Source of the DNA: a virus
Direction: 5' to 3' (one strand)
Length of the DNA: 46,099 nucleotides
IMG/VR virus record: IMGVR_UViG_3300017771_000020
Location: 1 to 46,099 of that record
Below the pieces are notes generated by a model, which worked only from the letters and a program-made list of their open reading frames with translations, ran no database searches and was not told the DNA's origin. Of the stretch, positions 3,680 to 44,612 are shown in pieces (the first letter of the stretch is position 1; each line of letters opens with the position of its first letter). Position numbers and translations under genes: made by a program.

Positions 3680-4134
3680 TGTCAGTATATGAAAATAAAG
3701 GACCTTGCTGGACAGGTTATAAGCAAGTAGGCATGAAAAAAGGAAAGAAAGGTAATCAAGTTCCTAACTGTGTTAAGGAGCATTGTGGATGTGAGTCTGA
3801 TCATTACGATGTCTATAATGAAGAAGCAGGCACAGGTTATACTCTATCATTTCCCAGGCTTTCAGAAGATCTTAAAGAAGCAGAGTATCAAGGACGAAAA
3901 GTAAAATTAAATAAACCTATGCAGGGCGACAAGAAAAAATTTAAAGTATACGTTAAAAATAAAAAAGGCAATATTGTTGTAGTTCATTTTGGACAAGGTG
4001 GTGACGCAAAAGGCGGCACAATGAGAATTCGAAAATCAAATCCAAAAGCAAGAGCATCATTTAGAGCAAGACATAATTGTGATAACCCAGGACCAAGATA
4101 CAAAGCTCGTTATTGGTCATGTAAGGCGTGGTAA
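3679..4134 (+). CDS. cysteine-containing phage protein with conserved basic C-terminal domain
   Basis: The 151-residue protein has two parts. The N-terminal piece (CWTGYKQVGMKKGKKGNQVP followed by NC) and an HCGC cluster suggest a small metal-binding unit. The C-terminal domain (about 76-151) contains KFKVYVKNKKGNIVVVHFG and then ASFRARHNCDNPGP and ARYWSCKAW, a recurrent module of marine T4-like phages sometimes attached to head proteins. Between them LSEDLKEAE offers [LI]xE sites of the kind gp21 cuts. Function unknown; a structural or DNA-binding role in the head is a guess from context. Confidence 0.5.
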   Translation: MSVYENKGPCWTGYKQVGMKKGKKGNQVPNCVKEHCGCESDHYDVYNEEAGTGYTLSFPRLSEDLKEAEYQGRKVKLNKPMQGDKKKFKVYVKNKKGNIVVVHFGQGGDAKGGTMRIRKSNPKARASFRARHNCDNPGPRYKARYWSCKAW

Positions 4135-9885: not shown

Positions 9886-10777
9886 TATACTAGATAACGT
9901 TTTTAAGAGTAAAAGCGTATCAGGTGGTGCTAATGAGATAGCTTATTGTTGTCCATTCTGCAATCATCATAAACCTAAGCTACAGATTAATGTAGAAACA
10001 CAACAGTGGCATTGCTGGGTTTGTGATGCTAAGGGTAAGTCAGTATTTAGCTTGGCTAAGAAACTAAAAGCAGCTAAGTCTATTTATCAAGAACTAGAGG
10101 CTATATACAAAAACTCTAAATTTAGTAAAAGCAAATATGTAAAAGATTCCTTTGTAAAGCTACCAGAGGAATATATTCCAATGGCATTCTTAAAAAGTGA
10201 CTCTCTCTCCTATGGACATGCTAAGAAGTACTTAAATAAAAGAGGAATAACAGAAGAAGACATTATCAAGTACAGCATAGGATATTGTGTAGACGGTGAC
10301 TATGGAGGAAGAATAATTGTTCCTTCATATGATTCAAATGGCAATTTAAACTATTTCGTAGCTAGATCTTTTTACAATTCACCTCTAAAGTACAAAAATC
10401 CACCAGCACCAAAAGATACTATAATATTTGACATGTATATAAATTGGAATATGCCTGTAATATTATGTGAAGGTGTTTTTGACGCGATGGCTATTAAAAA
10501 GAATGCAGTACCACTTTTAGGAAAGACAGTACAAGATACACTACTTAAAAATTTAATTAATAATACAAAAGAAGTTATAGTATGTCTAGATGCAGATGCA
10601 CAAGACACTATCTACAAGGTTACAGAAAAACTACTTAGAAATGGAGTTAAAGTTTCTAGAGTAAATTTAACGAAAGGCGATCCTTCAGACTTAGGGTTTA
10701 AAGTAATGAATTTTGCTTTAACAAAAGCAATACCGGTAAACGAATACGACTTAATAAGGCAAAAAATAAACATATGA
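9860..10777 (+). CDS. DNA primase (zinc finger plus TOPRIM; T4 gp61-like role)
   Basis: 305 residues. The N terminus carries a zinc-binding module, C31-P-F-C34 with C52-W-V-C55, which reads template DNA in primases. The TOPRIM catalytic core is clear: VILCEGVFDAMA with Glu204, then VIVCLDADAQD with Asp244 and Asp246, which bind the metals. This is the family that makes RNA primers for lagging-strand synthesis; in T4 the enzyme (gp61) works with helicase gp41, which is not in this window. It overlaps the upstream nuclease gene and shares an ATGA with the recombination gene downstream. Confidence 0.85.
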   Translation: MEIKNRLSSILDNVFKSKSVSGGANEIAYCCPFCNHHKPKLQINVETQQWHCWVCDAKGKSVFSLAKKLKAAKSIYQELEAIYKNSKFSKSKYVKDSFVKLPEEYIPMAFLKSDSLSYGHAKKYLNKRGITEEDIIKYSIGYCVDGDYGGRIIVPSYDSNGNLNYFVARSFYNSPLKYKNPPAPKDTIIFDMYINWNMPVILCEGVFDAMAIKKNAVPLLGKTVQDTLLKNLINNTKEVIVCLDADAQDTIYKVTEKLLRNGVKVSRVNLTKGDPSDLGFKVMNFALTKAIPVNEYDLIRQKINI

Positions 10778-13700
10778 AAATAAAAACAAAATTCAGATCA
10801 CTCAAAAAGATATACCACATATCTGATATTCAAATAAGAAATTTAAAACGACATAAAGAATTTGAGCAATGTTTTGAAAACCTATACACTTTTCTTAGAA
10901 AAGATCCTGATAACTCTGTAGTCTACATAGGTGGCGATATCGCTCACAGTAAAACAGATATGTCTCCAGAGCTGGTAGATCAGCTTTCTAGACTGTTTAA
11001 GAATTTAGCCGATATATGTCCCACTCTTTTAATCGCAGGAAATCATGATTGTAATTTAAACAATAGATCTAGGCTGGATGTACTAACACCAATTGTACAG
11101 AATTTAAATCACTCTAATTTACACTACTTAGATAAGACAGATGTGTACTATATAGGTGATGTTGGCTTTGCTGTTTTAGAAGTAAGAGATGATGAAGCAA
11201 ATCTACCAGATCCTAGTACAATTAAAGCAAAAACAAAAGTATTATTATTTCATGGTACTGTTGATAAATCACAGACAGACTTGGGTTTTGCATTACCTTC
11301 TGCTGTTAAACTAAAAGACTTTGATGGTTATGATATGGTAATGCTAGGTGATATTCACAAAATGCAGACAATGCAAGAATACAAAGAAGGAAAAGTTAAA
11401 AAGCCTGCTGTAAGATATTGTGGTTCATTAGTACAACAAAATCACGGAGAAACTTTACTAGGCCACGGAGTATCTGTATGGGATGTTAAGACAAGATCAT
11501 TTGTACACCAAGAAATAGAAAATGAGTACGGATATTACACTATGGATATTGATAGTGGACTAGTACCAAAAGTAGATGATTTACCAAAGCAAGCAAGATT
11601 AAGATTAAGGGTTAAGAACACTTCGCCGTCTGATTTAAAAAAAGCGCTTACTGTTATTAAGCATAGGCACAACATAAAAGAAATGTCTATTATAAGAGAG
11701 GACAATTATAAGGTTGATGCCGGAAATTCTTCAACTGTAGACTTTGGTGATGTATCAGACACTGATGTACAGAATGGATTAATAGAAAACTATCTAAAAA
11801 CAAACACAACAGCAGATGACAACACCATAGAAAAAGTTAAAAAAATTAATAAAGAGCTTAGTAGTGCTATTATAGGAGAAGAAATCTCTAGAAATATAAA
11901 CTGGAAACCTACAAGATTTGAGTTTTCTAATATGTTTAGTTACGGAGAAGATAATGTAATAGACTTTAAAAGATGTAATGGAATTGCAGGATTATTTAGC
12001 CCAAATGCAAGTGGTAAGTCAAGTATATTAGATGCAATAACATTTTGTTTATTTGATAAATCAACTAGAGCTTATAAAGCAGAAAATGTTATGAATCACG
12101 CAAAATCTGATTTTAGCTGTAAGCTAGAATTTGATGTAGGGAATGATCAGTATGTAATTGAAAGAAGAGGAAGAATACAAAATAATAAAGTAGCATCAAC
12201 AAGAGTTGATGTAGAATTTTATAGACTAGATGATGGAAAAAAGTTTTCATTAAATGGTGATCAAAGAGCATCTACAAATAAAAATATTAGAAAACTAGTA
12301 GGCACATATGAAGATTTTATAATGACTAGCTTTTCATCACAAGGCAATTCAGACATGTTCTTAGGTCTAAATCAGACAGAGAAGAAAGAAATATTAGGTA
12401 AGTTTTTAGGCTTATCTGTTTTTGATCAACTATATAAACTTGCAAAAGAAGAGTCTAGCGGCCTTCAAGCAATGTTAAAAAACTTTTTAGATGCAGATTA
12501 TGATCAACAAATAAGTGATATTGAAAATGAGATGGATGCAGTTATAGAGGTAATTGAAAAGCTTAATATTTCACTTCATGAAAAAGAAGAATCTAGAGAT
12601 GTTTTTAAAGATAAGATTATCGACCTTGTAAAAGTTATAAAACCAATTGACAGTACATTAAGATCAATAGACGAATTAGAAAATGAATATTCAAACACAG
12701 ATGCAAATTTACAGTCACTAACTGCAAGATTAGAATCAACAAAGACGCAGCTTCAAAATGCTAAAAAAGATGAAGAAATACTTAAAAATAGAATAAGTTC
12801 AGAGAAGTATGTAGATATTGATTCTAGGTTGACTGAACATGAACTGCTAGTAACACAAAAAGACGAAACAAAAGTAGAAGTTAATTCTTTAAAAGTTGAA
12901 GTAAAGAACAAACTAGAGAAAATAAATAAGCTAGGTGATCTAGACTATGATCCTAACTGTGAAAAATGTGTTAATAATATCTTTGTCAAAGATGCGATAC
13001 AGACAAAAGAAGCTTTGACAAATGATAAGCAGAGGGCAGGAACATTAGTGGCAAAGCTAAAAACACTAGAAAATAAAATACAGATAAATAATGATGTTTT
13101 AGAAATACACAGAGAATTTAAAAGCTTAAACTTAGAATTAAGTAATACTACATCTAACATAACCACATTTGAAAGAAGAATTAAAGAAATAAAAGATTCA
13201 TCAAAAACTGCAAAAGCATTAAAAAGCACTGTAAAAAGTGAAATTAAAAGAAGTCAGTCTTATCAAAAAGACATAGACTTTAATACTGAGATACAAGAAA
13301 AAATAGATGATGCAAAAAATTCAGAGTCAATTATCAATACTGAAATAAAGGCAATGAATAATGATATACAGCAGTATGTTGGGAAAAAATCTGCGCTAGA
13401 ATCTAAAAAAGAAGAAATAATACAAGTTATAAATAAAGTTACAGACTTAGAACAAAAGTACGAAGCATATAAATATTACTTGATGGCAGTTGACAAGAAT
13501 GGTGTTAGCTACGATTTAATTTCTCAAGTCTTAATAAATGTAGAGACAGAAGTAAATGATATACTTGCACAAATAGTTGATTTCCAAATCATATTCGAGA
13601 TGGATGGAAAGAATATTAACAACTACATAGCTTACGGTGATGATAAGTCTTGGTCACTAGAAATGGCATCTGGTATGGAAAAATTTATTTCAACTCTTGC

Positions 13701-13938
13701 AATTAGAATTGCACTGACAAATATATCAAACCTACCTAGACCTAATTTTATTGCTATTGATGAAGGATGGGGAACAATGGACAGTGATAACTTAAATTCA
13801 CTATACCAATTATTTCAGTATCTAAAAAATATATTCCAATTCTCATTAATAATATCTCATATAGATACAATGCGAGATTTTACAGATATTCTACTTGAAA
13901 TAAAGCAAGAAGAAGGACTTAGTAAAATAGTATTTTAG
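10774..13938 (+). CDS. single-chain gp47-gp46 (SbcD/Mre11 - SbcC/Rad50) fusion
   Basis: 1054 residues. Residues about 1-270 are a calcineurin-like nuclease: HISDIQIRNLKRH, YIGGDIAHS, AGNHDCN, LFHGTVD and MLGDIHK are the metal-binding motifs of Mre11/SbcD/gp47. From about 385 a Rad50-type ATPase begins: FSNMFSYGEDNVIDF, Walker A FSPNASGKSS (about 408-417), long coiled coils, a zinc hook C729-E-K-C732 at the apex, the signature MASGMEKF (about 964-971) and Walker B FIAIDEGWG (about 991-999). In T4 these are separate genes 47 and 46. The complex processes DNA ends for recombination-dependent replication. No frame break is seen at the junction, so the fusion is real in this sequence. Confidence 0.9.
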   Translation: MKIKTKFRSLKKIYHISDIQIRNLKRHKEFEQCFENLYTFLRKDPDNSVVYIGGDIAHSKTDMSPELVDQLSRLFKNLADICPTLLIAGNHDCNLNNRSRLDVLTPIVQNLNHSNLHYLDKTDVYYIGDVGFAVLEVRDDEANLPDPSTIKAKTKVLLFHGTVDKSQTDLGFALPSAVKLKDFDGYDMVMLGDIHKMQTMQEYKEGKVKKPAVRYCGSLVQQNHGETLLGHGVSVWDVKTRSFVHQEIENEYGYYTMDIDSGLVPKVDDLPKQARLRLRVKNTSPSDLKKALTVIKHRHNIKEMSIIREDNYKVDAGNSSTVDFGDVSDTDVQNGLIENYLKTNTTADDNTIEKVKKINKELSSAIIGEEISRNINWKPTRFEFSNMFSYGEDNVIDFKRCNGIAGLFSPNASGKSSILDAITFCLFDKSTRAYKAENVMNHAKSDFSCKLEFDVGNDQYVIERRGRIQNNKVASTRVDVEFYRLDDGKKFSLNGDQRASTNKNIRKLVGTYEDFIMTSFSSQGNSDMFLGLNQTEKKEILGKFLGLSVFDQLYKLAKEESSGLQAMLKNFLDADYDQQISDIENEMDAVIEVIEKLNISLHEKEESRDVFKDKIIDLVKVIKPIDSTLRSIDELENEYSNTDANLQSLTARLESTKTQLQNAKKDEEILKNRISSEKYVDIDSRLTEHELLVTQKDETKVEVNSLKVEVKNKLEKINKLGDLDYDPNCEKCVNNIFVKDAIQTKEALTNDKQRAGTLVAKLKTLENKIQINNDVLEIHREFKSLNLELSNTTSNITTFERRIKEIKDSSKTAKALKSTVKSEIKRSQSYQKDIDFNTEIQEKIDDAKNSESIINTEIKAMNNDIQQYVGKKSALESKKEEIIQVINKVTDLEQKYEAYKYYLMAVDKNGVSYDLISQVLINVETEVNDILAQIVDFQIIFEMDGKNINNYIAYGDDKSWSLEMASGMEKFISTLAIRIALTNISNLPRPNFIAIDEGWGTMDSDNLNSLYQLFQYLKNIFQFSLIISHIDTMRDFTDILLEIKQEEGLSKIVF

Positions 13939-14225: not shown

Positions 14226-17200
14226 ATGTCAAAGATCCAAAAAACAGCATTCTTACAAAATTTACAAGATATAGACGTATTTGAAAACGAAGAGGGAATA
14301 ACCTCTAAGTATTTCAATATTACTGATATACCTTTAGAGTTACCAATGGGAAAATCTTCGATGCTCATTATGGGATCGAAGTTTTTAAAGAATGATATTG
14401 TTTTAAAATTAGAATTAGTAGATAGTCTTGGAAATGCAGTATATCTAGAGCCTGTATTTGATTATGAAGAAAGTGGTGGTGTAAGAGTTGGTATCGAAAT
14501 CTATAAAGGCACTGCTGCAGGTTCTGCAACTTTAACAATACTGGGAGAACTAGACCCTACTACTTATGAAGGCGTAATTCCTCCAGAAGCACAGGGAATT
14601 TACAATGTAAAATACACACGGCCGTTAACTATAAACAAAACAATAGCAAATGATAGGCCAATAAGATTTTATAAAAAGCCAGAAGTAAGTGTTACAGAGA
14701 TAATAAAAGGTCAAGTAGCATTAACATCAACATCTACAGGATCAAACGTACAAAATGTAGGTTACATAGAAGGATTTCCAGTACCAAACACAGAAGGAAA
14801 TCAATTCACAATAGATGGTGATAATTTTGGAGAAGTTCAGTCTTATAATGATCAGGTATACGGATTTAGCCCAATAGGAAATTATGAATCTTATGACGCA
14901 TCTGACCCAAGATATACATTTAAAATAGGTGAAGCAGACTTTTCATCTTCTATGGTTGGTGGAACACTAACAATTACACAGCCAAATGCGCTAACACCAT
15001 TTCAAACTTCTAGCAATACAGTAATTCCTTCTTATTCTTCTAGAATAACAAAAGTAATAAACAAAAAGACTATTGAAGTTCAAAAACCTTTTGGAGTTTA
15101 TGATTCAGGAAGTGGATTTTATAGAATTGCTGGAATAGGATCAGGATCATATCAGATAAACTGGCCTAAAGAGCATGAGTATGATACAAGTAGTATTAAC
15201 TTTAAATCTTTTGCTGATGTAAGGCTTAAAAAATTAAGAACTTTTTCTGGTGATATAAATAGAGTAGCAGCTTATATAAAAAATAATGGACCTTTTAGTA
15301 ACTGGGAAAAAGTTGTTGATACACCTGTTGAATCTCCAGAATTACTATTAGATCCAACATCAATGACTGGTACATCAAGAATAGGTGTATTTAGTTCTGA
15401 CTCTGTAATAAACACTTATTGGACTGCAACAGGAGGACAATTTGGAACAGAAGAATCAGCAACAGTTCAAACATTCTCAGATAATGAGTATTTATCAGAT
15501 TCTGTATTTGTATCTGCATCAGCAGCATCTATGCTTGATAATGACAGTAATGAGTGGATAAAATTACAGCTCAAGCAAAACTATTCTATGAGTTTCATAG
15601 AAAATACAGAGTACAGAATAAAAGCAAAGCTTTTCTGTGACAACACAAACGGTTTACAAAACTCTGTCAAGGCTGTATTCCACATGTCAGGTTCTGCTTT
15701 TGGAATGTCACCGTCTTTATCAGACGCAAATTATGGTAGGGCAATAGCAAAAGTTCAATTTGATAATATTGCTGATAAAACAGAACAACAAGATTTAGAG
15801 GCAACATTTGTACCAGACTCTTCCGGTAATGCAATACTTCAAGTAAGATTTACAGGTGGACATTGGCATATGTCACAGGTGTCTATAAAGCCAAATTCAG
15901 ATACAAATTTTTCTCCTGAATTTATAAGATTAATTGCACCTGTACCACCACTCCAAACAAGACCAGATAGTTTAGATTTTGCATTTGAATTTTATGATAT
16001 AAATAATAATAAAGCAAAAACTGTATTAACTACAATACCTGATAATCCTAATGGTGTAGAATTCGCAGGTGAGAATATGAATATTCTCGGTGATGACAAT
16101 ATGATAGGAGGATCTGTATTTGTAGGTGGTGATGCAATAGGAGCTGGTATTCAGTTTGGTGGTGTAAACTCAACATTGCCAGAGACAGGAGAATCAGCAG
16201 CAGAAGGATCAGGATTTATAAGGTCAGTAAAATATCAAGGATTTACATCTGCAAGCTTAAGCACAGACAATACAGGTTTTATGATTTACAGTGGTTCTGT
16301 TTTACCAGACTCAGGTGACAATTACTCAGGTGTTGGCTTAGAATTAGTTGGAGAAAGCGGAAGCCTTAGATTTGGAACAAAGCCTTCTAGATTTGAAGTA
16401 ATAGCTGATGCATTCTTTGTTGGTAGTAAAAACACACAGTTTATTTCTGGTTCAGGAGGCATTATAGAAATAAGCTCATCAGCATTTCATTTATCATCTT
16501 CAGGAGATGTAATAATATCTGGATCAGTAACCGCAGTAGAAGGTAACATAGGCGGCTGGCAAATAGTTGATAATAAATTAAGTGGTAGTAATGCAACTTT
16601 AGATGCACTTGGATCTGCATTATATAAGTCTGATGAAGGACCAACCACAAATCCAAATGACGGATACTATATTGACTTTACACCTTCTGATAGTAATCAA
16701 TATTTTGTAAGATTTGGGTCAAACTTTGCTGTATCATCTTCAGGCGTTTTAGTTGCAAGTGGTGCAATAATTGAAGGCCAGTTGACAGCATCAACTGGTA
16801 AGATAGCAGATTGGAATATTGGTTCCAATACAATAAGTAAAGCAACTAATAATAAATTTACTGGTCTATCATCTGCAGGTGATACTAGATTTTTTGCTGG
16901 TGCAACATCTTTAACTAATAGCGGAAGTGCACCGTTTAATATAAAGTCAGATGGATCAATAACAGCATCAAATTATAGATTTGACGGTGATGGTTTAATT
17001 ACTGGATCTGTTACTGTTGGAGAAAGTGTTACTATACTTGGTGCAATATCTGCTAATACAATAAATACACCAGCAGCAGGACCATTTAAAGCAACAATAA
17101 ATAGTCAAGGATTTGCAAGATTCGTATCAGCATCTATCGGTGGGTGGCATGTAGATTCAGATTCTATATTTACAGGTGACAAAGTCACAGACGCAGGTTA

Positions 17201-20200
17201 TGCAGAGTCTGGAAGCATGACAATAACAGGAAGCGGTGGAATACATGCAAATCAGTTTATAATATCTTCATCTGGTGAAGCATTTTTTAAAGGTGAATTA
17301 GACAATACTGCAAAATTTGGTGGCGGTGCAGGTGGTGTTAGATTTAACGACTTCTTTGAAACAGAGACAGTTGAAGGAGTGCCAAGAATAGTACAAAAAC
17401 CTACAGCAGTTCTTAAAAGTGCTACAGGACAAATTTTATCTGCAAATGATTTAAGTGGTAGTTATGGTGAAGCTAATGTATCTGCATCATTTTCAATAAG
17501 TGCATCTGGAGTTTCAATAGAGCAGGCAGATATATCAACACAAAAAGCACAAATCTCTGGACAAAGTGCTCAATCATCAGCGACTTCTGCGACATCTGCT
17601 GAAGGATCTTCACAAACAGCAAACCAAAAAGCACAAGCAGCTAATACAAGTGCACAAAGTTCTGATTCTAGTGCACAGCTATCAAATCAAAAAGCGCAAA
17701 TCTCTGGACAAAGTGCACAATCTTCTGCAGGATCAGCACAATCATCTGCTGTATCAGCCACAGTAGCAGATGCTTCTGCCTCAGCTGCAAATACTGCTGC
17801 ACAAAGCTCTAATCAGAGTGCTCAATCTTCTGCAACAGGAGCTTCACAATCTCAAGCTGGTGCTACTTCAGCACAACAAGGCGCAGGAGTATCGCAACAA
17901 GGAGCACAATCAGCAGCTAGTTCTGCAACAACATCTGAGGCTTCTGCACAGGCTTCTACACAAGCAAAATCAGATGCTCAGAGCGCTAAGACACAGGCAC
18001 AAGTTGCTTCACAACAATCAAACCAATTTAGACAAGGAGCATTAGTTGCAAAAGAATCATCAGCAACTTCTAGTTTCGCAGCAAGAGACTCTGCTTCATT
18101 TTCAGAGACAAAAGCACAACAATCAAATCAGTTTGCACAGTCATCTGCTACATCAGCAACAACTTCTGAGGGGTCAGCTCAGAGTTCTAATTCAAGTGCA
18201 CAAACAGCAAATCAAAAAGCACAACAAGCAGCATCATCTGAAGGAGTAGCTTCTACTGGTGCACAACAAGCAGCAAGTTCTGCTACAACATCTGAGGCAT
18301 CAGCACAAAGTTCAAACCAAGCTGCTCAATCTTCTAATCAAAGTGCACAGGGCGCTAATACATCAGCTCAAAGCTCTAATCAAAGTGCTCAATCATCAGC
18401 AACTGGAGCTTCACAATCTCAAGCTGGTGCTACTTCATCACAGCAAGGAGCATCAACATCTCAACAAGGAGCAGGAGTATCACAACAAGGGGCGCAATCA
18501 GCAGCTAGTTCTGCAACAACATCTGAGGCATCAGCACAAAGTTCTGCAACTTCAGCAACTGTTGCAGATGCTTCGGCATCAGCAGCAAATACATCAGCTC
18601 AAAGTTCAAATACAAGTGCTCAATCATCAGCAACTGGAGCTTCTCAGTCTCAAGCAGGTGCCACATCAGCTCAGCAAGGAGCATCTGTTTCTCAACAGGG
18701 TGCACAATCTTCTGCAACATCTGCACAATCATCTGCTGTATCGGCAACTGTTGCAGATGCTTCGGCATCAGCAGCAAATACATCAGCTCAAAGTTCAAAT
18801 ACAAGTGCGCAAGGAGCAAACCAATCAGCACAAGGAGCAAATACATCTGCACAACAATCTCAGGCAGGAGCTGCATCAGCTCAGCAAGGAGCATCGGTTT
18901 CACAGCAAGGAGCTCAGTCTTCAGCAACATCTGCTACATCAGCAGAAGGATCAGCACAAAGCTCTAATCAAAGTGCTCAATCATCAGCAACTGGAGCTTC
19001 ACAATCTCAAGCAGGAGCTACTTCAGCACAGCAAGGAGCTCAATCTTCTGCAGGATCAGCTACATCAGCAGCAGGATCAGCAACAGAAGCAGATGCTTCG
19101 GCATCAGCAGCAAATACCTCAGCACAAAGTTCTAATCAGAGTGCTCAATCTTCTGCAACAGGAGCTTCACAATCTCAAGCTGGTGCAACATCATCACAAC
19201 AAGGAGCATCAACATCTCAGCAAGGTGCAGGAGTATCACAGCAAGGTGCACAATCATCAGCAGCTTCAGCAACTACATCTGAGGCATCAGCACAAAGTTC
19301 AAATCAGTCAGCTCAAGGTGCATCAGCATCTTCACAAGTTGCAAACCAGAAAGCTCAAGTTGCTAATCAGTCTGCACAATCATCAGCAGGATCTGCACAA
19401 TCTTCAGCAGCATCGGCAACAGTAGCAGATGCTTCGGCATCAGCTGCAGAAAGTTCTGCACAAAGTTCAAATCAAGCTGCACAAACATCACAATCTGGTG
19501 CATCAACAGCACAACAAGGTGCTTCAACTTCACAAGCTGGTGCATCAACAGCACAACAAGGTGCTTCAACTTCACAAGCTGGGGCTTCTACTTCACAGCA
19601 AGGTGCACAATCATCTGCAGCTTCAGCAACTACATCTGAGGCATCAGCACAAAGTTCAAATCAGTCAGCTCAAGGATCAAATTCATCTGCACAATCTTCT
19701 GCAGGATCTGCAACAACTGCAAATCAAAAAGCACAACAGGCAACTACATCAGCAACAGGTGCATCACAATCAGCACAATCTTCAGCAGCATCAGCAACTG
19801 TGGCGGACGCTTCAGCATCAGCTGCAGAAAGTTCTGCACAAAGTTCAAATCAAGCTGCACAAACATCACAATCTGGTGCATCAACTGCTCAGACAGGAGC
19901 TTCACAAGCTCAAGCTGGTGCTTCAACTGCACAACAAGGAGCTCAGTCAGCAGCAAGTTCAGCAACATCTGCTGAAGGATCTTCTCAAACAGCAAATCAA
20001 AAAGCTCAAGCTGCAAATTCATCAGCACAAAGTTCAAATTCAAGCGCACAATCTTCTGCAACAGGAGCTTCACAATCTCAAGCAGGAGCTACTTCAGCTC
20101 AGCAAGGTGCACAATCAGCACAAGCTGGAGCATCAACAGCACAGCAAGGAGCTTCAACATCTCAACAAGGAGCTTCAACTTCACAAGCTGGAGCATCAAC

Positions 20201-23200
20201 AGCACAGCAAGGAGCACAATCCGCTGCTAGTTCTGCGACAACATCTGAGGCATCAGCACAAAGTTCAAACCAAGCTGCACAATCATCTCAAGCAGGAGCA
20301 TCTTCATCTCAACAGGGTGCACAAAATTCAGCAGGATCTGCATCAGAATCTGCACAATCCGCGGCACAGTCTGCAACAAAAGCATCACAAGCTGCATTAC
20401 AAGCTCAAGGAGCAGCAGCATCTGCATCAGCAGCGGAAGATGCTGCGCAGCAAGCCGCAACAAAAGCTCAACAGGCATCAACAGCTGCACAGCAGGCATC
20501 TACAAAAGCATCTGATGCAGAAAGTTCTGCACAACAAGCAGCAGCCAAAGCACAAAATGCATCAAATTCTGCACAAACAGCAGCAATAGCAGCAACAGCT
20601 GCAGCAGCATCCGCATCACTAGCTTCTACATCATCTCAGCAAGCATCTACTGTTGCAACACAAGCATCACAAATTGCATCACAAGCAGCAGCATCAGCAA
20701 CCGCAGCGGCTCAAGAAGCAGCAGCTTCATTGGCATCTGCACAACAATCAGATGGGTCTGCTCAATCATCTAGTCAGAGTGCACAGGGCGCTAATCAATC
20801 AGCACAATCTTCTGCAGGATCTGCAACAACTGCAAATCAAAAAGCACAAGCAGCTAATGCAAGTGCTCAAAGTTCTGATTCTAGTGCACAAGGTGCAGCT
20901 GGATCAGCTACAACTGCTAATCAAAAAGCTCAACAAGCATCTAGCTCTGCTCAGACATCAGCAGTATCTGCAACCTCAGCAAATTTATCAGCAACAGAAG
21001 CAGACGCATCTGCATCAGTAGCAAATCAAAAAGCACAAATAGCCCAACAAGGCGCTTCAACATCTCAGTCAGGTGCAAGTACTGCACAATCAGGTGCTGC
21101 AACGGCACAGAGTGGAGCAACATCAGCACAACAAGGAGCAAGCTCTGCAAATACTTCTGCACAATCTTCTGCAGGATCGGCTACAACTGCTAATCAAAAA
21201 GCGCAAATTTCTAATCAAAGTGCACAATCATCAGCAACTTCTGCGACATCTGCTGAAGGATCTTCTCAAACAGCAAATCAAAAAGCACAGCAAGCTTCTG
21301 CATCATCAACAACTGCAAACCAAAAAGCACAGCAAGCTTCTAGTTCAGCTCAATCTTCTGCAGGCTCTGCTACATCAGCAGCAGGATCAGCAACAGAAGC
21401 AGATGCTTCGGCATCTCTAGCTAATCAAAAAGCACAAGTAGCTCAGCAAGGAGCAAGTACTGCTCAAAGTGGTGCTGCAACTGCACAGTCAGGAGCTACT
21501 ACTTCACAACAAGGTGCTGCATCTTCTCAGTCAGGAGCTCAATCAGCTGCTAGTTCTGCGACATCTGCTGAAGGATCTTCTCAAACAGCAAATCAAAAAG
21601 CTCAAGCTGCAAATTCATCAGCACAAGGAGCCGCAGGATCTGCAACAACTGCAAATCAAAAATCACAAGATGCAAATGCAAGTGCACAATCATCAGCAAC
21701 TGGAGCTTCTCAGGCTCAAGCTGGTGCTACATCGGCACAGCAAGGAGCAAGTACTGCACAGAGCGGAGCATCAACTGCTCAGACAGGAGCTTCACAAGCT
21801 CAAGCTGGCGCTACATCGGCACAGCAAGGAGCACAATCTTCTGCAGGATCTGCTACATCAGCAGCAGGATCAGCAACAGAAGCAGAAGCATCAGCTTCAT
21901 TGGCAAATCAAAAAGCTCAAGCTGCAAATGCATCAGCACAAGGAGCTGCAGGATCAGAAACAAATGCAAACACTTCAGCACAACAAGCTCAATCAGGAGC
22001 AAGTACTGCGCAGACAGGTGCTTCACAAGCTCAAGCAGGTGCTGCATCTGCTCAGACAGGCGCTTCACAAGCTCAAGCAGGAGCAAGCTCTGCACAACAA
22101 GGAGCTAATTCTTCAAATGCATCTGCACAGACTTCTGCAGTAGCAGCAACTTTTTCAGCAGCATCAGCATCAGTTTCAACAACAAGTGCACAATCTTCAG
22201 ATGGATCTGCACAAAATTCAGCAGCATCAGCTGCAGAATCTGCAGCGTCTGCAAATACTTCGGCACAAAGTGCAAGTCAGTCTGCAACCAAAGCATCTGA
22301 AGCAGCAGAAAGTGCACAAGCTTCAGCTAACTCAGCAAGTCAGTCTGCTGGTGTTGCTACATCAGCCGCACAAAGTGCAAGTCAATCTTCTAGTTCAGCA
22401 ACAGCTGCAGCAGCATCTGCAACGACATCTGCACAAGAAGCTAGTGATTCTGCTGGTTCAGCAGCGACAGCTGCAACTAAATCACAACAAGCAGCAACTG
22501 ATGCAACTACAGCTTCACAAAAAGCTTCACAAGCTTCAACAAATGCAACTGCAGCTTCACAATCTGCAAATACTTCTGCACAATCAGCAGCTGGATCAGC
22601 AACTAGTGCAAATCAATCAGCAACAAAAGCATCACAGGCTTCAACATCCGCAGCAGCATCTGCAGCATCAGCATCAGCAGCATCAACAAGTGCACAACAA
22701 GCATCAACAAAAGCACAACAAGCTGCAGTACAAGCTCAGAACGCTGAGGGAGAAGCAGAAAATGCAGCTCAAGAAGCAGCAGATTCTGCAACAAAAGCAC
22801 AACAAGCATCAGCATCTGCAACTGCAGCTTCACAATCTGCATCAAACTCTGCAACATCTGCAGCAAACTCTGCAACAACAGCACAACAAGCTGCAAGTAT
22901 AGCAACACAAGCAGCAGCATCTGCAACCGCAGCAGCTAATGAAGCAGCAGCATCATTGTCATCTGCACAGTCTTCGGATGGATCTGCTCAAAATGCAAAT
23001 TCAAGCGCACAAGGTGCAGCTCAAAAAGCAACCGATGCAACAAGTGCTGCTCAACAAGCATCGACAAAACAATCACAAGCTTCAACACTACAATCACAAA
23101 GCTCAACATTAAGATCACAAAGTTCTGCAATATCTTCTTCTACAAATTTAAGAGCTGATGGAATTCAAGCCATATTATCAGGATCATTAGGAGCTAGCAC

Positions 23201-25685
23201 TTCAGTAGTGACACTACCTAATGTTATTGCAACAGGATCCGGTACAATAGCAGGATGGACTATAGATTCCGATGCAATATTTGTAGGTACAAAAGACACA
23301 AGCGGTTTTACAAGTGGCAACGGTCACATGACTATATCGTCTACAGGTGCAATACACGCTCCAAAATTTTATATAGATAGTTCTGGTAATGTAGAATTAG
23401 AAGGAACCGTTACTGCAACTGCTGGTGCAATTGGCGGATTTACAATTGCAAATAGTGATATTACTGGTAGTGGCGGTAAGTTAGTTACCAGCAATAGGTC
23501 AACTAACAACTTCGGAACAGGTACAACTTATAATACAACAAAAAGAGTAGAGCTTCTTCCAAGCAATATACAGATTCGTACTTATGTAGGTCATCCGCTT
23601 TCAACAAACGGAATTGATCAGTCAAGAATAATTTTTGATGCTGCTTCTACAGCATCATTTAACTTTTCTAATGGAGAGACTAATACTAAAATTAACACTG
23701 CCAAATTAAGACTAGAAAATATAGAAATTGGAAAATATGATACTAGTGACAATTTCACCGGCAAAAGCTTGTATATAGGAGTCGGTGGTGGTAGTGTAGG
23801 CTCAATTAGAAACAATATCAATGATGCATCTTCTGCATATGCAATCATAAAGCCAGACAATACCAATGCAGGTTGGATTGTAGGACAGAAATTATCTGTA
23901 GGAACTGTTGTTGCATTTACATCTACTGTTTATCAGTCAGGTTATAGATTTAGTGTTAATGGCTCATCTTATTTTAGTGACTATCTTGTTGCATTAGGTG
24001 GTATTCATGTTGGTGGAACAGGAGATCCTGGAACTGATAATCTATTTGTTGATGGTTTCACATACTCACTTGGTGGTCTTCACGTCGGAGGAACATCAAA
24101 TCCAGGAACTGATAACTTAGCTGTTGATGGTTACACATACTCACTTGGTGGTCTTAATGTTGGTGGAACATCAGATCCAGGTGATGATTGCTTACGAGTG
24201 ACTGGTCACGCGACTTTTGGAAAAGATACAACAGACAGTAATACTGTTACGGTTTATGTATCCAGTAATGCAGGAGATCAAGGTATACAGTTTTTAAGAG
24301 ATGATTCTTCTACAACTTCTGGTGAAGGTATGGGTGCAATAGGTTTTGATACTATTGATGGAGGAGCACCAACAGATATTTTTAAATCATCTGCATTAAT
24401 ATCAGGTCATGCATCAGAGACTATGGGTACGGGTGATAAGGGTGGCCAAATAAGATTTTACACAAAACCAACTGATGCAGATGCTTCCACCAGTGCAACT
24501 TTAAGGGGTAAATTTAATGCTTCAGGACAGCTTATATTGGAAAGCGATCTTTCAATTGTTCAAGCTAAAAAGTTTTATCTTGATGATGTTAGCAATACGT
24601 ATATCCACTCTCCAGGCTCTGATCATATAGACTTTGTAGCAGGTGGAGCAACATATCTAGCAATAGACCAAGACAATTCAAATACTGTTATTAGAGCAGA
24701 TCTTTTTCTTGCAGGAAGTTCAACAACAATAGATTCCGGAGCGTATGGCTCAAATTACATAAGGCTTTTTAATAACAACGGTCACAGCTATATGGATTTC
24801 TTCGGTGGAGACATGTATTTTAGAGAAAATGGTAGTGCAGTAGGATTAATGATTGAAGATTCTACAGCTTATGTTGGCATTGGACATTCAGATCCAAATG
24901 CTCCACTAGATGTTAGAAAGAATCAATCAAATGACGCATATATAGGTATTTTTAGAAATTCAAGTTCATCTGATTCTGGAAACTCATACATACTAAACTT
25001 ATGGCATTCTCAAGAAGATTCAACAAACCAATTCGATACAGGTGAGCACTGGATTCAATTTTCAGATAATAGCGGAACATTCTTAGGAGAAATTACTAGT
25101 CGAGTGACTTATACCACATTTACAGGAGGTCACGTGTCACAAATTATAAGTGGTTCAGCTGCAGACAATGAAAATGAGATGAAAGCTTGGAAGCCTGGTA
25201 TGATCGTAAAAGCAACAGGAAACTTAAATGTAACTGGAAGCACTTTAGATTTAGCTTGGCCGGAAGTTACTGTTACAACAACTCAAAAAGACAAAGCTGT
25301 AATGGGTGTCTATAGTGATATAAAGCCGGGTAGTGGTTCAAATTGGGTGGGCCCATGGAATAACAAAAGCGCAGTAAGCAGTTCTACAGGAGACTGGGGT
25401 ACAGGACATAATATGCATGGTTTAGATCCTGTAAAACCAGCATTGGACTATAATGCGGTTGGTGAAGGAATGATGTTGGTTACAGATACTAATGGAAATA
25501 TAGAAACAGGCGATTATATCTGTTCATCTACAAGAACTGGTCACGGTGAAAAGCAAGACGATGACTTACTACACAATTACACAGTAGCAAAAGCTACACA
25601 GCCTTATAACTTTGCATCTGCTAGTAATGATGCAGACTTAGGCTATAAATCAGTATTAATTGCATGTACTTATCATTGTGGGTAA
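14226..25685 (+). CDS. giant tail fibre with Ala/Ser/Gln heptad-repeat stalk (3819 aa)
   Basis: The N-terminal part (1 to about 1100) is beta-rich and probably attaches to the virion. Residues about 385-570 look like a jelly-roll carbohydrate-binding module, followed by repeated GW-type modules (IGGWQI near 775, ADWNIG near 861, GGWHVD near 973). Residues about 1108-2974 are heptads such as AQSSNQS, AQSSATG and ATSAQQG, with Ala at position 1 and Ser/Ala at position 4, as in an alanine-rich coiled coil; lambda Stf has a comparable Ala/Ser-rich stalk. GW-type modules resume (AGWTID near 3008), then three 25-residue units (HVGGT...PGTDNL...VDG) and a tip ending YKSVLIACTYHCG. No ribosome site is visible. 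Most likely a long side or tail fibre. Confidence 0.75.
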   Translation: MSKIQKTAFLQNLQDIDVFENEEGITSKYFNITDIPLELPMGKSSMLIMGSKFLKNDIVLKLELVDSLGNAVYLEPVFDYEESGGVRVGIEIYKGTAAGSATLTILGELDPTTYEGVIPPEAQGIYNVKYTRPLTINKTIANDRPIRFYKKPEVSVTEIIKGQVALTSTSTGSNVQNVGYIEGFPVPNTEGNQFTIDGDNFGEVQSYNDQVYGFSPIGNYESYDASDPRYTFKIGEADFSSSMVGGTLTITQPNALTPFQTSSNTVIPSYSSRITKVINKKTIEVQKPFGVYDSGSGFYRIAGIGSGSYQINWPKEHEYDTSSINFKSFADVRLKKLRTFSGDINRVAAYIKNNGPFSNWEKVVDTPVESPELLLDPTSMTGTSRIGVFSSDSVINTYWTATGGQFGTEESATVQTFSDNEYLSDSVFVSASAASMLDNDSNEWIKLQLKQNYSMSFIENTEYRIKAKLFCDNTNGLQNSVKAVFHMSGSAFGMSPSLSDANYGRAIAKVQFDNIADKTEQQDLEATFVPDSSGNAILQVRFTGGHWHMSQVSIKPNSDTNFSPEFIRLIAPVPPLQTRPDSLDFAFEFYDINNNKAKTVLTTIPDNPNGVEFAGENMNILGDDNMIGGSVFVGGDAIGAGIQFGGVNSTLPETGESAAEGSGFIRSVKYQGFTSASLSTDNTGFMIYSGSVLPDSGDNYSGVGLELVGESGSLRFGTKPSRFEVIADAFFVGSKNTQFISGSGGIIEISSSAFHLSSSGDVIISGSVTAVEGNIGGWQIVDNKLSGSNATLDALGSALYKSDEGPTTNPNDGYYIDFTPSDSNQYFVRFGSNFAVSSSGVLVASGAIIEGQLTASTGKIADWNIGSNTISKATNNKFTGLSSAGDTRFFAGATSLTNSGSAPFNIKSDGSITASNYRFDGDGLITGSVTVGESVTILGAISANTINTPAAGPFKATINSQGFARFVSASIGGWHVDSDSIFTGDKVTDAGYAESGSMTITGSGGIHANQFIISSSGEAFFKGELDNTAKFGGGAGGVRFNDFFETETVEGVPRIVQKPTAVLKSATGQILSANDLSGSYGEANVSASFSISASGVSIEQADISTQKAQISGQSAQSSATSATSAEGSSQTANQKAQAANTSAQSSDSSAQLSNQKAQISGQSAQSSAGSAQSSAVSATVADASASAANTAAQSSNQSAQSSATGASQSQAGATSAQQGAGVSQQGAQSAASSATTSEASAQASTQAKSDAQSAKTQAQVASQQSNQFRQGALVAKESSATSSFAARDSASFSETKAQQSNQFAQSSATSATTSEGSAQSSNSSAQTANQKAQQAASSEGVASTGAQQAASSATTSEASAQSSNQAAQSSNQSAQGANTSAQSSNQSAQSSATGASQSQAGATSSQQGASTSQQGAGVSQQGAQSAASSATTSEASAQSSATSATVADASASAANTSAQSSNTSAQSSATGASQSQAGATSAQQGASVSQQGAQSSATSAQSSAVSATVADASASAANTSAQSSNTSAQGANQSAQGANTSAQQSQAGAASAQQGASVSQQGAQSSATSATSAEGSAQSSNQSAQSSATGASQSQAGATSAQQGAQSSAGSATSAAGSATEADASASAANTSAQSSNQSAQSSATGASQSQAGATSSQQGASTSQQGAGVSQQGAQSSAASATTSEASAQSSNQSAQGASASSQVANQKAQVANQSAQSSAGSAQSSAASATVADASASAAESSAQSSNQAAQTSQSGASTAQQGASTSQAGASTAQQGASTSQAGASTSQQGAQSSAASATTSEASAQSSNQSAQGSNSSAQSSAGSATTANQKAQQATTSATGASQSAQSSAASATVADASASAAESSAQSSNQAAQTSQSGASTAQTGASQAQAGASTAQQGAQSAASSATSAEGSSQTANQKAQAANSSAQSSNSSAQSSATGASQSQAGATSAQQGAQSAQAGASTAQQGASTSQQGASTSQAGASTAQQGAQSAASSATTSEASAQSSNQAAQSSQAGASSSQQGAQNSAGSASESAQSAAQSATKASQAALQAQGAAASASAAEDAAQQAATKAQQASTAAQQASTKASDAESSAQQAAAKAQNASNSAQTAAIAATAAAASASLASTSSQQASTVATQASQIASQAAASATAAAQEAAASLASAQQSDGSAQSSSQSAQGANQSAQSSAGSATTANQKAQAANASAQSSDSSAQGAAGSATTANQKAQQASSSAQTSAVSATSANLSATEADASASVANQKAQIAQQGASTSQSGASTAQSGAATAQSGATSAQQGASSANTSAQSSAGSATTANQKAQISNQSAQSSATSATSAEGSSQTANQKAQQASASSTTANQKAQQASSSAQSSAGSATSAAGSATEADASASLANQKAQVAQQGASTAQSGAATAQSGATTSQQGAASSQSGAQSAASSATSAEGSSQTANQKAQAANSSAQGAAGSATTANQKSQDANASAQSSATGASQAQAGATSAQQGASTAQSGASTAQTGASQAQAGATSAQQGAQSSAGSATSAAGSATEAEASASLANQKAQAANASAQGAAGSETNANTSAQQAQSGASTAQTGASQAQAGAASAQTGASQAQAGASSAQQGANSSNASAQTSAVAATFSAASASVSTTSAQSSDGSAQNSAASAAESAASANTSAQSASQSATKASEAAESAQASANSASQSAGVATSAAQSASQSSSSATAAAASATTSAQEASDSAGSAATAATKSQQAATDATTASQKASQASTNATAASQSANTSAQSAAGSATSANQSATKASQASTSAAASAASASAASTSAQQASTKAQQAAVQAQNAEGEAENAAQEAADSATKAQQASASATAASQSASNSATSAANSATTAQQAASIATQAAASATAAANEAAASLSSAQSSDGSAQNANSSAQGAAQKATDATSAAQQASTKQSQASTLQSQSSTLRSQSSAISSSTNLRADGIQAILSGSLGASTSVVTLPNVIATGSGTIAGWTIDSDAIFVGTKDTSGFTSGNGHMTISSTGAIHAPKFYIDSSGNVELEGTVTATAGAIGGFTIANSDITGSGGKLVTSNRSTNNFGTGTTYNTTKRVELLPSNIQIRTYVGHPLSTNGIDQSRIIFDAASTASFNFSNGETNTKINTAKLRLENIEIGKYDTSDNFTGKSLYIGVGGGSVGSIRNNINDASSAYAIIKPDNTNAGWIVGQKLSVGTVVAFTSTVYQSGYRFSVNGSSYFSDYLVALGGIHVGGTGDPGTDNLFVDGFTYSLGGLHVGGTSNPGTDNLAVDGYTYSLGGLNVGGTSDPGDDCLRVTGHATFGKDTTDSNTVTVYVSSNAGDQGIQFLRDDSSTTSGEGMGAIGFDTIDGGAPTDIFKSSALISGHASETMGTGDKGGQIRFYTKPTDADASTSATLRGKFNASGQLILESDLSIVQAKKFYLDDVSNTYIHSPGSDHIDFVAGGATYLAIDQDNSNTVIRADLFLAGSSTTIDSGAYGSNYIRLFNNNGHSYMDFFGGDMYFRENGSAVGLMIEDSTAYVGIGHSDPNAPLDVRKNQSNDAYIGIFRNSSSSDSGNSYILNLWHSQEDSTNQFDTGEHWIQFSDNSGTFLGEITSRVTYTTFTGGHVSQIISGSAADNENEMKAWKPGMIVKATGNLNVTGSTLDLAWPEVTVTTTQKDKAVMGVYSDIKPGSGSNWVGPWNNKSAVSSSTGDWGTGHNMHGLDPVKPALDYNAVGEGMMLVTDTNGNIETGDYICSSTRTGHGEKQDDDLLHNYTVAKATQPYNFASASNDADLGYKSVLIACTYHCG
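18555..18807 (+). repeat. exact long direct repeat spaced by 189 bases within the heptad array
   Basis: A block of about 65 bases starting GCAACTGTTGCAGATGCTTC begins at 18555 and again at 18744 with identical sequence over its length. The offset of 189 bases equals nine 21-base units, a higher-order repeat of 63 residues. Such exact copies indicate recent duplication or gene conversion. Confidence 0.8.
19495..19578 (+). repeat. perfect 42-base tandem duplication within the heptad array
   Basis: A 42-base unit beginning CTGGTGCATCAACAGCACAA occurs twice back to back (19495-19536 and 19537-19578) without a difference, encoding the same two heptads (ASTAQQG ASTSQAG) twice. A third, partly matching unit follows. 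This is the clearest sign of recent slippage or unequal recombination. Confidence 0.85.
23997..24200 (+). repeat. three 75-base repeats in the distal fibre domain
   Basis: Units start at 23997, 24072 and 24147 (exact 75-base spacing) and encode GGxHVGGTxxPGTDNLxVDG-like 25-residue modules; the third is shortened and changes to PGDDCLRV. They lie just beyond the heptad stalk and probably form a beta-structured shaft or tip segment. Confidence 0.75.
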
Positions 25686-26825: not shown

Positions 26826-29423
26826 ATGTCAGACTACATTAAGAGGCTCGTTAATGAAGCAGTATACGGTGTAGACTGTTTAGTTTTAGATAGCACAACT
26901 ATACAAGAGTTCTTAGAGTGGAGAGAAAATCTTCATGAAGTAAGTAATGTACAGAGCGTGTATTCAGACGAAGGTTTATATGACTTTTTTATTGGGTTTA
27001 AAGACTACGAAAGAATATCAAAAGACGATGCTGCTAAAGTTATGGGCTGGCCAGTTGTAAATTACATCATAGATAACAAAGCAGATGATCCATTTTATCA
27101 GATGGATATGTTAGATGATGATGAGCTTCTAGGAAGATCAAATACTGTATCTTATGGTGGCACAATTGCTACAGGTGATAGCTCTTTAAAGACAGGTGAC
27201 TATAAGTGGATGAAGCAGATGGAGGGACTTATTGATACTTTAGGCTGGGAAGTCATCGATTGGATTGGGTGTGGTGTTGATAGAAAGAGTCAGGTAGTAG
27301 TCATCCCAACTAAAGATCAAAAAGTAAACGAAGCCATAAAAATATCAGTAAGAGAAACAATAAAAAAAGTTGACAACAAGTATATTGTTTACCCTGAAAA
27401 GGGTGGAAAAAGATTAGGAACACATAGCACAAAAAAGAAAGCAATGGCACAGCTAACTGCCATAGAACTTTCTAAGAAGGGTATAAAAAAAGAATCAGAT
27501 GAATACACATTTGGTCCTGACTGGATACCCACTAGTTTGTCTCAAAGAAAAAAGATGAAACGCATACACAGAAAACTAAATAGAAGTATACGAGAACAAG
27601 AAAATAATATTAAAAAAATTGTTGCTGTTTATCCTGGAAGGTTTCAACCATTTGGTCCACATCATAAAGAAACATATGACTTCTTAAAAAAGAGATTTGA
27701 TGAAGTTTATATTGCAACAAGTAATAAACAAGGAGGCAACAGACATCCTATGAGCTTTGCACAAAAGCGAAAACATATGATAAAGATGGGAATTCCTTCA
27801 AAATCTATAGTACAAGAAAAACAGCCATATATACCTAAGGGCTTACTATCAAAGTATGATTCTGAATCAACTGCTGTGGTCTTCGCAGTTGGTGCGAAGG
27901 ATGAGGGCAGACTCTCAAGTGGCAAGTACTTTAAGAAATATAGAAAAAACTATATGAGGCTAAAAGGTTACGAAGAAAACGGTTATACTTTACAGGCGCC
28001 ACATGTATCAGTAAAGGTTGGGGGACAAGAAATAAGTGGTACAACAATGAGAAAGCTTTTAGGATCAGAAAAATATGATCTAAAATTAAAAAAGAAATTT
28101 TTTAAGAAAATGTTTGGTTACTTTGATCAAAAAACATTTGATCTTTTTGTCACGTCATTTAAAGAATCAGTAATTAAGTCACTTATAAAAGAAGGCGGCG
28201 CTTATGGACACATGGCACATCCTTTTGATGATTACGCTTTGACTTTTGGAGAATTAAAAGATATAATAGACTTAGGACTACAAGGCAGTTTAGATAAAGA
28301 AGAAGCAGTAACTGAAAAATTAGATGGTCAAAATATTATGATTTCAGCAATAAACGGAAAAGCTGTTGCTGCTAGAAATAAGGGCGACTTAAAAAGAGGC
28401 GGAATGAGCTTAAAAGGTGTACAGGCAAAGTTTGCTAATCATATTCCTAGTGTTAGAGATGCATTTGTATTTTCAATGAGAGATATTGCAAATGCTGTAG
28501 AAAAAATGTCAAAGAAAGATCAAGTAGCACTGTTTAATAATGGTATGAACTGGGCAAATATAGAAATTATTTATCCAGAAAATTTAAATGTAATAGACTA
28601 TGATGGTCCTGCAACAATAGTTTTTCACGGTATCTTAAAATATAGTGATGCATGGGTTCCTTCTGGTGAGGTAAGATCAGGAGGAAAGAGAATAGCAGAC
28701 ATTATTAATAAAGTCAATAAAGGAATAAAGACTAAGTTCGCATTTAAAGGACCAAATGTAATAAAACTACATAAACCAAAGAACTATGGAAGGCTAAGGA
28801 AAAAATATATCGGATCTTTGAACAAGTTGCAGAATATATATAGACTAAAGGATAGTGATACCTTATCGTTATATCATCAACACTTTTGGTTAGAATATAT
28901 TTTAAATGGCGCAAATTCTTCTGACTATAAAAATTTACCAGACAATGTTTTATATCCTCTTATGAAAAGATGGGCATTCTCTGATAAAAGTTACAAAATG
29001 ACTGAAATTAATAAATTAAAAGAAGACTATCCTAAGTTTGTTGACTGGGTAAGATCAACAGAAAAAATAGATCATGCAAAAATGCTTAAAGATAATATGA
29101 AACCATTCGAAGAAATATTCTTTGGAGTTGGTGCTGAAATATTAGCAAACGCCAGTAATTATCTTAGTGCAAATCCAGAAAAAACAGCAAAGAAACTAAG
29201 AGATGATCTAGATAAAGCATCAAAAGCTTTGTTAGCTAAGAAAGATTTTTCTAATATTGACAAGCTAAAAGCACAACTTAAAAAACTAAAAGCAATGCCA
29301 GCACTAAAAAAAGCTGCACCGTCAGAAGGACTAGTGTTCAAGTATAACGGCAAAGTTTATAAATTTACAGGATTCTTTGCACCAATTAATCAAATTCTAG
29401 GTTTAGAAAAATTCTCGAGGTAG
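26826..29423 (+). CDS. dual nucleotidyltransferase: HIGH-type domain fused to ligase-like KxDG domain
   Basis: 865 residues. An N-terminal leader-like start (MSDYIKRLVNE-A) is followed by an unassigned acidic region and a small DUF2188-like unit (KYIVYPEKGGKRLGTHSTKK, about 188-207). Residues about 265-430 form an NMNAT/cytidylyltransferase-like domain: VYPGRFQPFGPHH, the HxGH-type nucleotide site with His279 and His280, and ISGTTMR (403-409), the second signature. Residues about 460-860 resemble the covalent nucleotidyltransferase (RNA/DNA ligase) fold: EKLDG with Lys498 as the expected adenylated Lys, WANIEIIYPEN as possible motif III, EGLVFK (834-839) as motif IV and VYKFTG as motif V. It may act in NAD or RNA-end metabolism; the substrate is unknown. 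Confidence 0.7.
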   Translation: MSDYIKRLVNEAVYGVDCLVLDSTTIQEFLEWRENLHEVSNVQSVYSDEGLYDFFIGFKDYERISKDDAAKVMGWPVVNYIIDNKADDPFYQMDMLDDDELLGRSNTVSYGGTIATGDSSLKTGDYKWMKQMEGLIDTLGWEVIDWIGCGVDRKSQVVVIPTKDQKVNEAIKISVRETIKKVDNKYIVYPEKGGKRLGTHSTKKKAMAQLTAIELSKKGIKKESDEYTFGPDWIPTSLSQRKKMKRIHRKLNRSIREQENNIKKIVAVYPGRFQPFGPHHKETYDFLKKRFDEVYIATSNKQGGNRHPMSFAQKRKHMIKMGIPSKSIVQEKQPYIPKGLLSKYDSESTAVVFAVGAKDEGRLSSGKYFKKYRKNYMRLKGYEENGYTLQAPHVSVKVGGQEISGTTMRKLLGSEKYDLKLKKKFFKKMFGYFDQKTFDLFVTSFKESVIKSLIKEGGAYGHMAHPFDDYALTFGELKDIIDLGLQGSLDKEEAVTEKLDGQNIMISAINGKAVAARNKGDLKRGGMSLKGVQAKFANHIPSVRDAFVFSMRDIANAVEKMSKKDQVALFNNGMNWANIEIIYPENLNVIDYDGPATIVFHGILKYSDAWVPSGEVRSGGKRIADIINKVNKGIKTKFAFKGPNVIKLHKPKNYGRLRKKYIGSLNKLQNIYRLKDSDTLSLYHQHFWLEYILNGANSSDYKNLPDNVLYPLMKRWAFSDKSYKMTEINKLKEDYPKFVDWVRSTEKIDHAKMLKDNMKPFEEIFFGVGAEILANASNYLSANPEKTAKKLRDDLDKASKALLAKKDFSNIDKLKAQLKKLKAMPALKKAAPSEGLVFKYNGKVYKFTGFFAPINQILGLEKFSR

Positions 29424-42815: not shown

Positions 42816-42852
42816 TATATATAAAAAAAAGAATTTATTGTATAATAAAACA

Positions 42853-42861
42853 ATATTTATA
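42853..42861 (+). promoter_or_regulatory. ATATTTATA motif upstream of the 42895 fibre gene
   Basis: An exact ATATTTATA lies 33 bases before the ATG in an 79-base gap, followed by TAGGAGAA. Same motif as in the gaps before the 33351, scaffold and neck genes. Promoter role inferred. Confidence 0.38.
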
Positions 42862-42894
42862 CATAGAACTAGATTTGCTTAATAGGAGAATATA

Positions 42895-44292: not shown

Positions 44293-44312
44293 AATAGTAA
44301 GAGAGGTTACAC

Positions 44313-44534: not shown

Positions 44535-44546
44535 TTAAACTATTGG

Positions 44547-44570: not shown

Positions 44571-44612
44571 AAGTGGGCTCTAAAGAGTAACCAACCGTAG
44601 GAGAAAAATTAA

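Follow-up and report, generated by a model that had tools for sequence, protein, structure and literature searches.

A phage fibre gene encoding a stalk of 266 alanine/serine heptads in a single register

The repeats of lambda-type side tail fibres (PF03406, Phage_fiber_2) are Ala/Ser-rich stalk repeats within a phage fibre. The closest described stalk is the PCoil of the E. coli prophage fibres EPclA and EPclB, in which the heptad 'Ala-X-X-Ala/Ser-X-X-Ser' recurs almost without Leu or Ile. PCoil is reported to be alpha-helical by circular dichroism, to melt near 50 °C, to be a trimer by light scattering and to measure 14-16 nm by electron microscopy for 116 residues, with lengths that vary by multiples of seven (PMC3368898). 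Among long structures on phage particles, tail hairs of 119 nm are reported for phage CBB (PMC5259590).

Here we describe a fibre gene in a 46 kb virus record (IMG/VR IMGVR_UViG_3300017771_000020; its 46,099 nucleotides are called the window below), the product of which carries the A-x-x-A/S-x-x-S pattern, with few large hydrophobic residues and between globular parts, over 266 heptads. As with PCoil, the lengths of relatives differ in steps of seven, seen here in one full-length stalk pair (196 = 28 x 7 residues). The two differ in size, with 88-116 residues described for PCoil (PMC3368898) and 1867 here, and their flanks are not homologous by the tests run here. The flanks of the lambda-type side tail fibre also differ from those in the window, and PF03406 gave no match at E≤0.1 with the whole protein and none at E≤10 with three stalk slices; PF11839 (Alanine_zipper) likewise matched neither the protein nor the three slices. 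It should be noted that another long Ala stalk, that of L259, likewise gave no match, so that the filtering may hide sequence of this sort from the search. A further likeness is to YadA-type adhesins such as the bacterial protein L340, trimeric surface fibres with long Ala heptad stalks; some of the sampled bacterial stalks are of a length similar to that in the window. The fibre described here differs in being virus-encoded and without an autotransporter anchor, and the Pfam models of the YadA head, stalk and anchor had no match in it, with L340 serving as the positive control.

The length of the stalk was placed in a sample of viral stalks scored in the same way, for which 211 loci (L097-L307) were taken; two had no ORF and 14 of the other 209 were dropped for hydrophobic content. 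Among the matches listed, the 195 loci that were kept have a median of 34 heptads, a 90th percentile of 44 and a maximum of 85, values that are lower bounds since many of these loci are contig fragments. At 266 heptads, the stalk in the window is about three times as long as any other sampled phage stalk outside its own close relatives. Ala-heptad patterns matched widely in viral and in cellular collections, so such stalks are common. A scan of bacterial genomes (at least 119 loci, of which 97 could be scored and 85 entered the median) gave, among the matches listed, stalks of 216 and up to 341 heptads, L399 being the longest, where top entries from one Pseudomonas stutzeri contig may overlap. 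The bacterial proteins L340, L357, L363, L384, L388 and L403 have very long Ala/Ser heptad stalks, of 84 to about 300 heptads. When five bacterial proteins were tested in Pfam, only L340 (84 heptads) matched the YadA stalk, anchor and head; Alanine_zipper matched L340, L384 and L363, L403 fell just under its cut-off and L388 matched nothing. We read the long bacterial stalk proteins as trimeric adhesins, the longest of them by the look of their C ends. Because the bacterial lengths are comparable, the stalk in the window is extreme for a phage and not for biology. What is new, as far as the present searches of sequences and papers reach, is this length in a phage, common only to a few near relatives, while the kind of stalk is already known and common in phage fibres.

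Layout of the fibre gene and register of the stalk

The open reading frame at 14226..25685 starts with ATG and codes for 3819 amino acids and a stop (Table 1). Residues 1108-2974 form 266 complete heptads and 5 further residues in a single seven-residue register, in agreement with the original prediction of a 3819-residue fibre with about 266 heptads in one register. Ala occupies position 1 in 92% of the heptads, position 4 is Ala or Ser in all 266, and position 7 is Ser (51%), Gly (26%) or Lys (11%) in 88%. The combination of Ala at position 1 with Ala/Ser at position 4 is found in 246 of the 266 heptads in the chosen frame, against 79 of 266 in the next-best of the seven frames. At period 3.5 Ala reaches a spectral power of 241, compared with a maximum of 7.9 in 1000 shuffles (periods 3.5 and 7), and Ala in the stalk has no power at periods 2, 3, 3.6, 3.667, 4, 11 and 15. 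The composition had been predicted to be almost only Ala, Ser, Gln, Thr, Asn and Gly, and these six make up 92% of the stalk. There is hardly any large hydrophobic core residue, and Pro is entirely absent from the 1867 stalk residues, while the N part has 43 in 1107 aa and the C part 20 in 845 aa. As structures of the stalk, beta repeats were rejected for the lack of power at period 2, and collagen for the lack of power at period 3 and of Pro.

Table 1. Features of the fibre gene, with residues of the protein and nucleotide positions in the window
Feature	Residues	Positions	Strand	Remark
N-terminal beta domain	10-160	14253..14705	+	AF2 pLDDT mostly 71-90; aligned in ten sequences
Jelly-roll beta-sandwich, before stalk	369-559	15330..15902	+	VIA-align
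GW-type module before stalk	968-1029	17127..17312	+	Homologous to post-stalk module
Heptad stalk A-x-x-(A/S)-x-x-(S/G/K), 266 complete heptads	1108-2974	17547..23147	+	
Six atypical heptads	1248-1289	17967..18092	+	K/S/R at position 1
Stalk block overlapping the 15-heptad block best conserved against the sister	2043-2178	20352..20759	+	
Stalk exit	2949-2990	23070..23195	+	Conserved in sister and in L292
GW-type module after stalk	3005-3066	23238..23423	+	
25-residue tandem repeats, 75 bp period, 2.5 copies		23997..24181	+	Beta type by look of sequence
C-terminal conserved domain, ends ACTYHCG	3593-3819	25002..25682	+	Encoded by 14 IMG/VR loci

The core is not uniform along the stalk. Specifically, all six heptads at 1248-1289 have Lys, Ser or Arg at position 1 together with more hydrophobics, which is probably a local change of the core and possibly a register shift or joint, and a comparable departure is visible by eye in the sister protein (L009/L017, see below). 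A further three heptads, at 2949-2963, have Gln, Gln and Arg at position 1. The term unbroken therefore applies to the spacing of the heptads and not to the composition of the core throughout.

The N-terminal beta domain, conserved in relatives, is the probable virion attachment end of the protein, and the C-terminal conserved domain its probable tip or trimerisation end. Among INPHARED phage records the N part has one remote match (LR756508, 28.7%), and the same collection gave none for the C part and, with the low-complexity filter on, none for a stretch of 254 residues that spans the entry into the stalk. Within the model of the N part, the only usable fold match is that of the jelly roll, which VIA-align superimposes on CBM16 2zew (Z 12.2, rmsd 2.5 Å, 134 aligned) and on meprin 4gwm (Z 12.5, rmsd 3.1 Å, 145 aligned). 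The modelled domain thus resembles carbohydrate-binding and MAM domains by fold, a likeness that proves no function. The top Foldseek matches of the N model in the PDB, which are big beta proteins unrelated to it and for the most part have TM-scores close to 0.1, were rejected, and the nearest folds in a viral library belong to three proteins, all uncharacterized, from uncultured Caudovirales phages. GW-type modules are found at residues 775, 860 and 971 before the stalk and at 3008 and 3069 after it; they had been predicted on both sides, and the pair that flanks the stalk is homologous (score 152 against a shuffle maximum of 80). A PDB sequence search found no match for two stalk pieces and, for the C end, only a weak and unrelated ketosynthase (E 0.049), while NCBIfam had no match for the three proteins tried. 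Because no Pfam model matches the C-terminal domain in the window, a role for it as a chaperone is hypothetical.

Relatives with and without the stalk

Among the relatives examined, long stalks are found only in a sister contig, in L004 and in L292. The sister, contig 3300020421_000050, comes from another sample and has a stalk of about 290 heptads by two scorings (L009/L017; L001, L016, L309, L439, L443 and L444 are this same contig). L004 is of the same population as the window (99.8% identical), with 44 of 45 heptads visible before the contig ends, and L292, which was found by pattern, shows 44 heptads in its visible part. A complete scan of the viral collection for QQG-type heptads gave 10 stretches, which are like that of the window only in L292 and the sister contig, the remainder being of 12-19 heptads and of other types.

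Relatives that share either flank were found with and without the stalk. The C-terminal 227 residues have 14 IMG/VR relatives, with a stalk in L009 and L004, short Ala coils in L013 and none in 11; of these, L002, L003, L005-L008 and L014 are truncated on the 5' side, which leaves only L010, L011, L012 and L015 as complete ORFs without a stalk. For the N part, 155 relatives were found and 80 kept, all of which were scanned (ORFs of at least 300 aa, score above 60); one of the 80 has a long stalk (L017) and one has 7 heptads (L048), and many may end before the stalk site. L018, L020 and L021 are 56-67% identical to the window protein over most of the N part and carry other beta modules at the stalk site. 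The stalk-less relatives (L010-L012 and L015 by the C end; L018, L020 and L021 by the N end) are therefore homologous in their N or C parts and share GW/beta modules, but differ in having beta modules and no heptad stalk in the part seen, which supports the idea, put forward in the original prediction, that the repeat entered an ordinary fibre or expanded inside one. L292 (2-2287) agrees with the window in its stalk exit and in the order of the genes downstream but ends in Peptidase_S74 (E 1.8e-15), for which Pfam gave no match in the window protein. Peptidase_S74 is a chaperone of trimeric fibres. Between these two loci, stalk and tip have been swapped as modules.

The comparison of full-length stalks is limited to one pair, the window and L017, in which the sister is longer, between fixed anchors and at the same site, by exactly 28 heptads. 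When the two are aligned residue by residue with no constraint on the gaps, seven divides the length of 16 of the 18 gaps, and the remaining ones, of +1 and -1, lie about 20 residues from each other. For the stalk as a whole their dN/dS is 0.34; it is 0.16 in the 630 codons that align best and 0.07 in the N part. When the stalks are aligned by heptads, the identity is 0.14 and 0.48 in the end blocks and 0.94 near residue 2060, from which a block of 15 heptads is 94% identical to the sister. The 266 heptads have 150 peptide forms and 233 DNA forms, and with so few DNA-identical heptads a young DNA duplication is ruled out as the origin of the stalk. DNA periods of 42, 63 and 168 bp, all multiples of 21, are also found in places. 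Together, the indels, the dN/dS values and the heptad forms indicate that the repeat is old, is selected as protein and changes in length by whole heptads.

Hint/intein-like domains lie inside the fibres of L017 (residues ~3285-3435, just after the stalk) and L048 (near the C end), and the window protein has no such match. With the Intein_splicing model, L017 gives E 9e-8 and L048 gives 2e-5, two matches that fall under the Pfam cut-off, and the region in L017 also matches AXH (8e-12) and Vint (5e-4). By eye, neither domain has a Cys, Ser or Thr after the closing His-Asn, as in cleaving rather than splicing types.

Proposed structure and role of the fibre

We propose that the open reading frame encodes a giant fibre on the virion of a marine, T4-like phage, an explanation that, taken as a whole, we consider likely. 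Its N-terminal beta part would contain the probable virion anchor, a CBM-like jelly roll and GW modules. The stalk would be one continuous, parallel, left-handed alpha-helical coiled coil of 266 heptads, most likely trimeric and with an Ala/Ser core, and would be followed downstream by a GW module, short beta repeats and the conserved C-terminal domain. We propose that the stalk acts as a spacer that keeps the tip some 225-280 nm past the N-terminal part, allowing receptor contact at a distance, and that its length changes by whole heptads (21 bp) so that the register is kept.

That the stalk is a continuous helical, most likely trimeric rod is in our judgement probable. A helical coiled coil is well supported by the period of 3.5, the absence of Pro, the whole-heptad length changes, the measured PCoil proteins and an AF2 helix that is confident in part only. 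The strongest structural support for helix and trimer comes by analogy from PCoil. In the AF2 monomer model of the stalk end, made from a shallow alignment with 13 other sequences, helices span 2701-2873 and 2891-2970 with one break of 17 residues between them, at pLDDT 72-78 over the first 70 residues and ~37-68 thereafter. At the stalk start the model is helical at 1130-1162 and 1179-1199 with a pLDDT of only 22-43, and the C-terminal part is mostly below 50; in the model of the stalk end it is mostly below 40, too poor for a fold search. The stalk had been predicted to be a continuous coiled coil of about 280 nm; the helical part of that prediction is well supported, but the length depends on a rise of 1.5 Å per residue. 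The 1867 residues would give 276 nm at 1.48 Å per residue and 225-258 nm when scaled from the PCoil micrographs (PMC3368898). We have less confidence that the full 225-280 nm would be displayed on the virion than we have in the helical rod itself.

The repeats could instead be mostly disordered or only partly helical, forming a flexible entropic linker that is shorter and thinner than a rod. This would suit a stalk rich in Ser, Thr, Gly and Asn with hardly any large hydrophobics, whose Gly content (6.2%) is at the 93rd percentile of the 195 viral comparators, whose mean helix propensity is poorer than that of 85% of them, and along which the AF2 confidence drops. An Lpp trimer engineered to have an all-Ala core is also described as reaching only some 20% helicity in solution, where it does not trimerise (PMC4137666), and the Ala-containing repeats of mycobacteriophage Tweety gp54 are likened to intrinsically unstructured proteins (PMC2884959). 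The instability of the all-Ala model core and the high Gly content of the stalk thus leave room for kinks or disorder. A linker is nevertheless unlikely in view of the strict period of 3.5, the complete lack of Pro, the invariable Ala or Ser at position 4 and the preservation of the heptad by 16 of 18 indels, and heptads of the same type are reported from measurement to be helical and trimeric (PMC3368898).

It is less probable again that the helical chain folds back or packs antiparallel, whether Alacoil-like or as a tetramer as in honeybee silk, to give a thicker and much shorter fibre. Ala-rich heptads are described as also forming antiparallel tetramers in honeybee silk (PMC12284834), and a turn might be formed by the six heptads at 1248-1289. 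On the other hand, phage stalks of the same type are reported as trimers with a length that fits the number of residues (PMC3368898), the stalk relative L292 carries the S74 chaperone, and the AF2 helices are long, with the single 17-residue break. An assembly error or neutral repeat slippage without a role, as might be suspected of low-complexity sequence from a metagenome in which two loci nearly identical to the window (L002, L003) start downstream of the stalk, is highly improbable given a sister from another sample with a similar but separately diverged stalk, the dN/dS of 0.16-0.34 and few DNA-identical heptads, the 0 mismatches in 1026 nucleotides between the independent contig L004 and the last 342 stalk residues, and exact direct repeats (the longest 71 bp in the window stalk and below 61 in the sister) that are too short to mislead assembly easily, so that the stalk length is not an obvious assembly artefact.

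We tentatively suggest, short of holding it to be the likelier case, that this lineage has stretched one polypeptide to a continuous coiled coil about a quarter of a micrometre in length, with a reach that is tuned by the gain or loss of whole heptads and that lets the phage probe at long range for marine hosts that are sparse or covered by a capsule. Such a probe would do on a virus what the stalks of trimeric adhesins do on bacteria. If it is present on the virion, the fibre would be an extreme of phage fibre length from a single polypeptide and a natural test, over hundreds of heptads, of an Ala/Ser core that is weak in short model peptides. With a sister that is 28 heptads longer, it becomes possible to test whether fibre length is a reach that can evolve, a question for which the stalk-less relatives are natural controls, and the stalk repeats are a ready-made long spacer.

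Gene neighbourhood

The fibre gene, which is known from a metagenome contig, is located between a nuclease/ATPase gene and, past one small gene, an endolysin gene. It is encoded in the same window as T4-type head genes: Terminase_6N, Portal_T4 (Gp20), Peptidase_S77 (prohead protease) and the Gp23 capsid protein all lie downstream of it. No tRNAs were found in the window. The open reading frame at 10774-13938 combines a calcineurin-like phosphoesterase (12-196) with an SMC/AAA_23 ATPase part (from ~382) and is an apparent fusion of both Mre11/Rad50-type (T4 gp47/gp46) nuclease subunits. Between the endolysin and terminase genes, 26826-29423 encodes an 865-aa protein with a cytidylyltransferase-like domain (268-357), and a similar ORF is present in L292. 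Three further short fibre-like genes lie near the end of the window (42363-46099). One of them, at 42895-44292, is fibre-like by the look of its sequence alone, and PHROG tail fiber matches were found at 42363-42815 and from 44613 onward, the latter gene being cut by the end of the contig.
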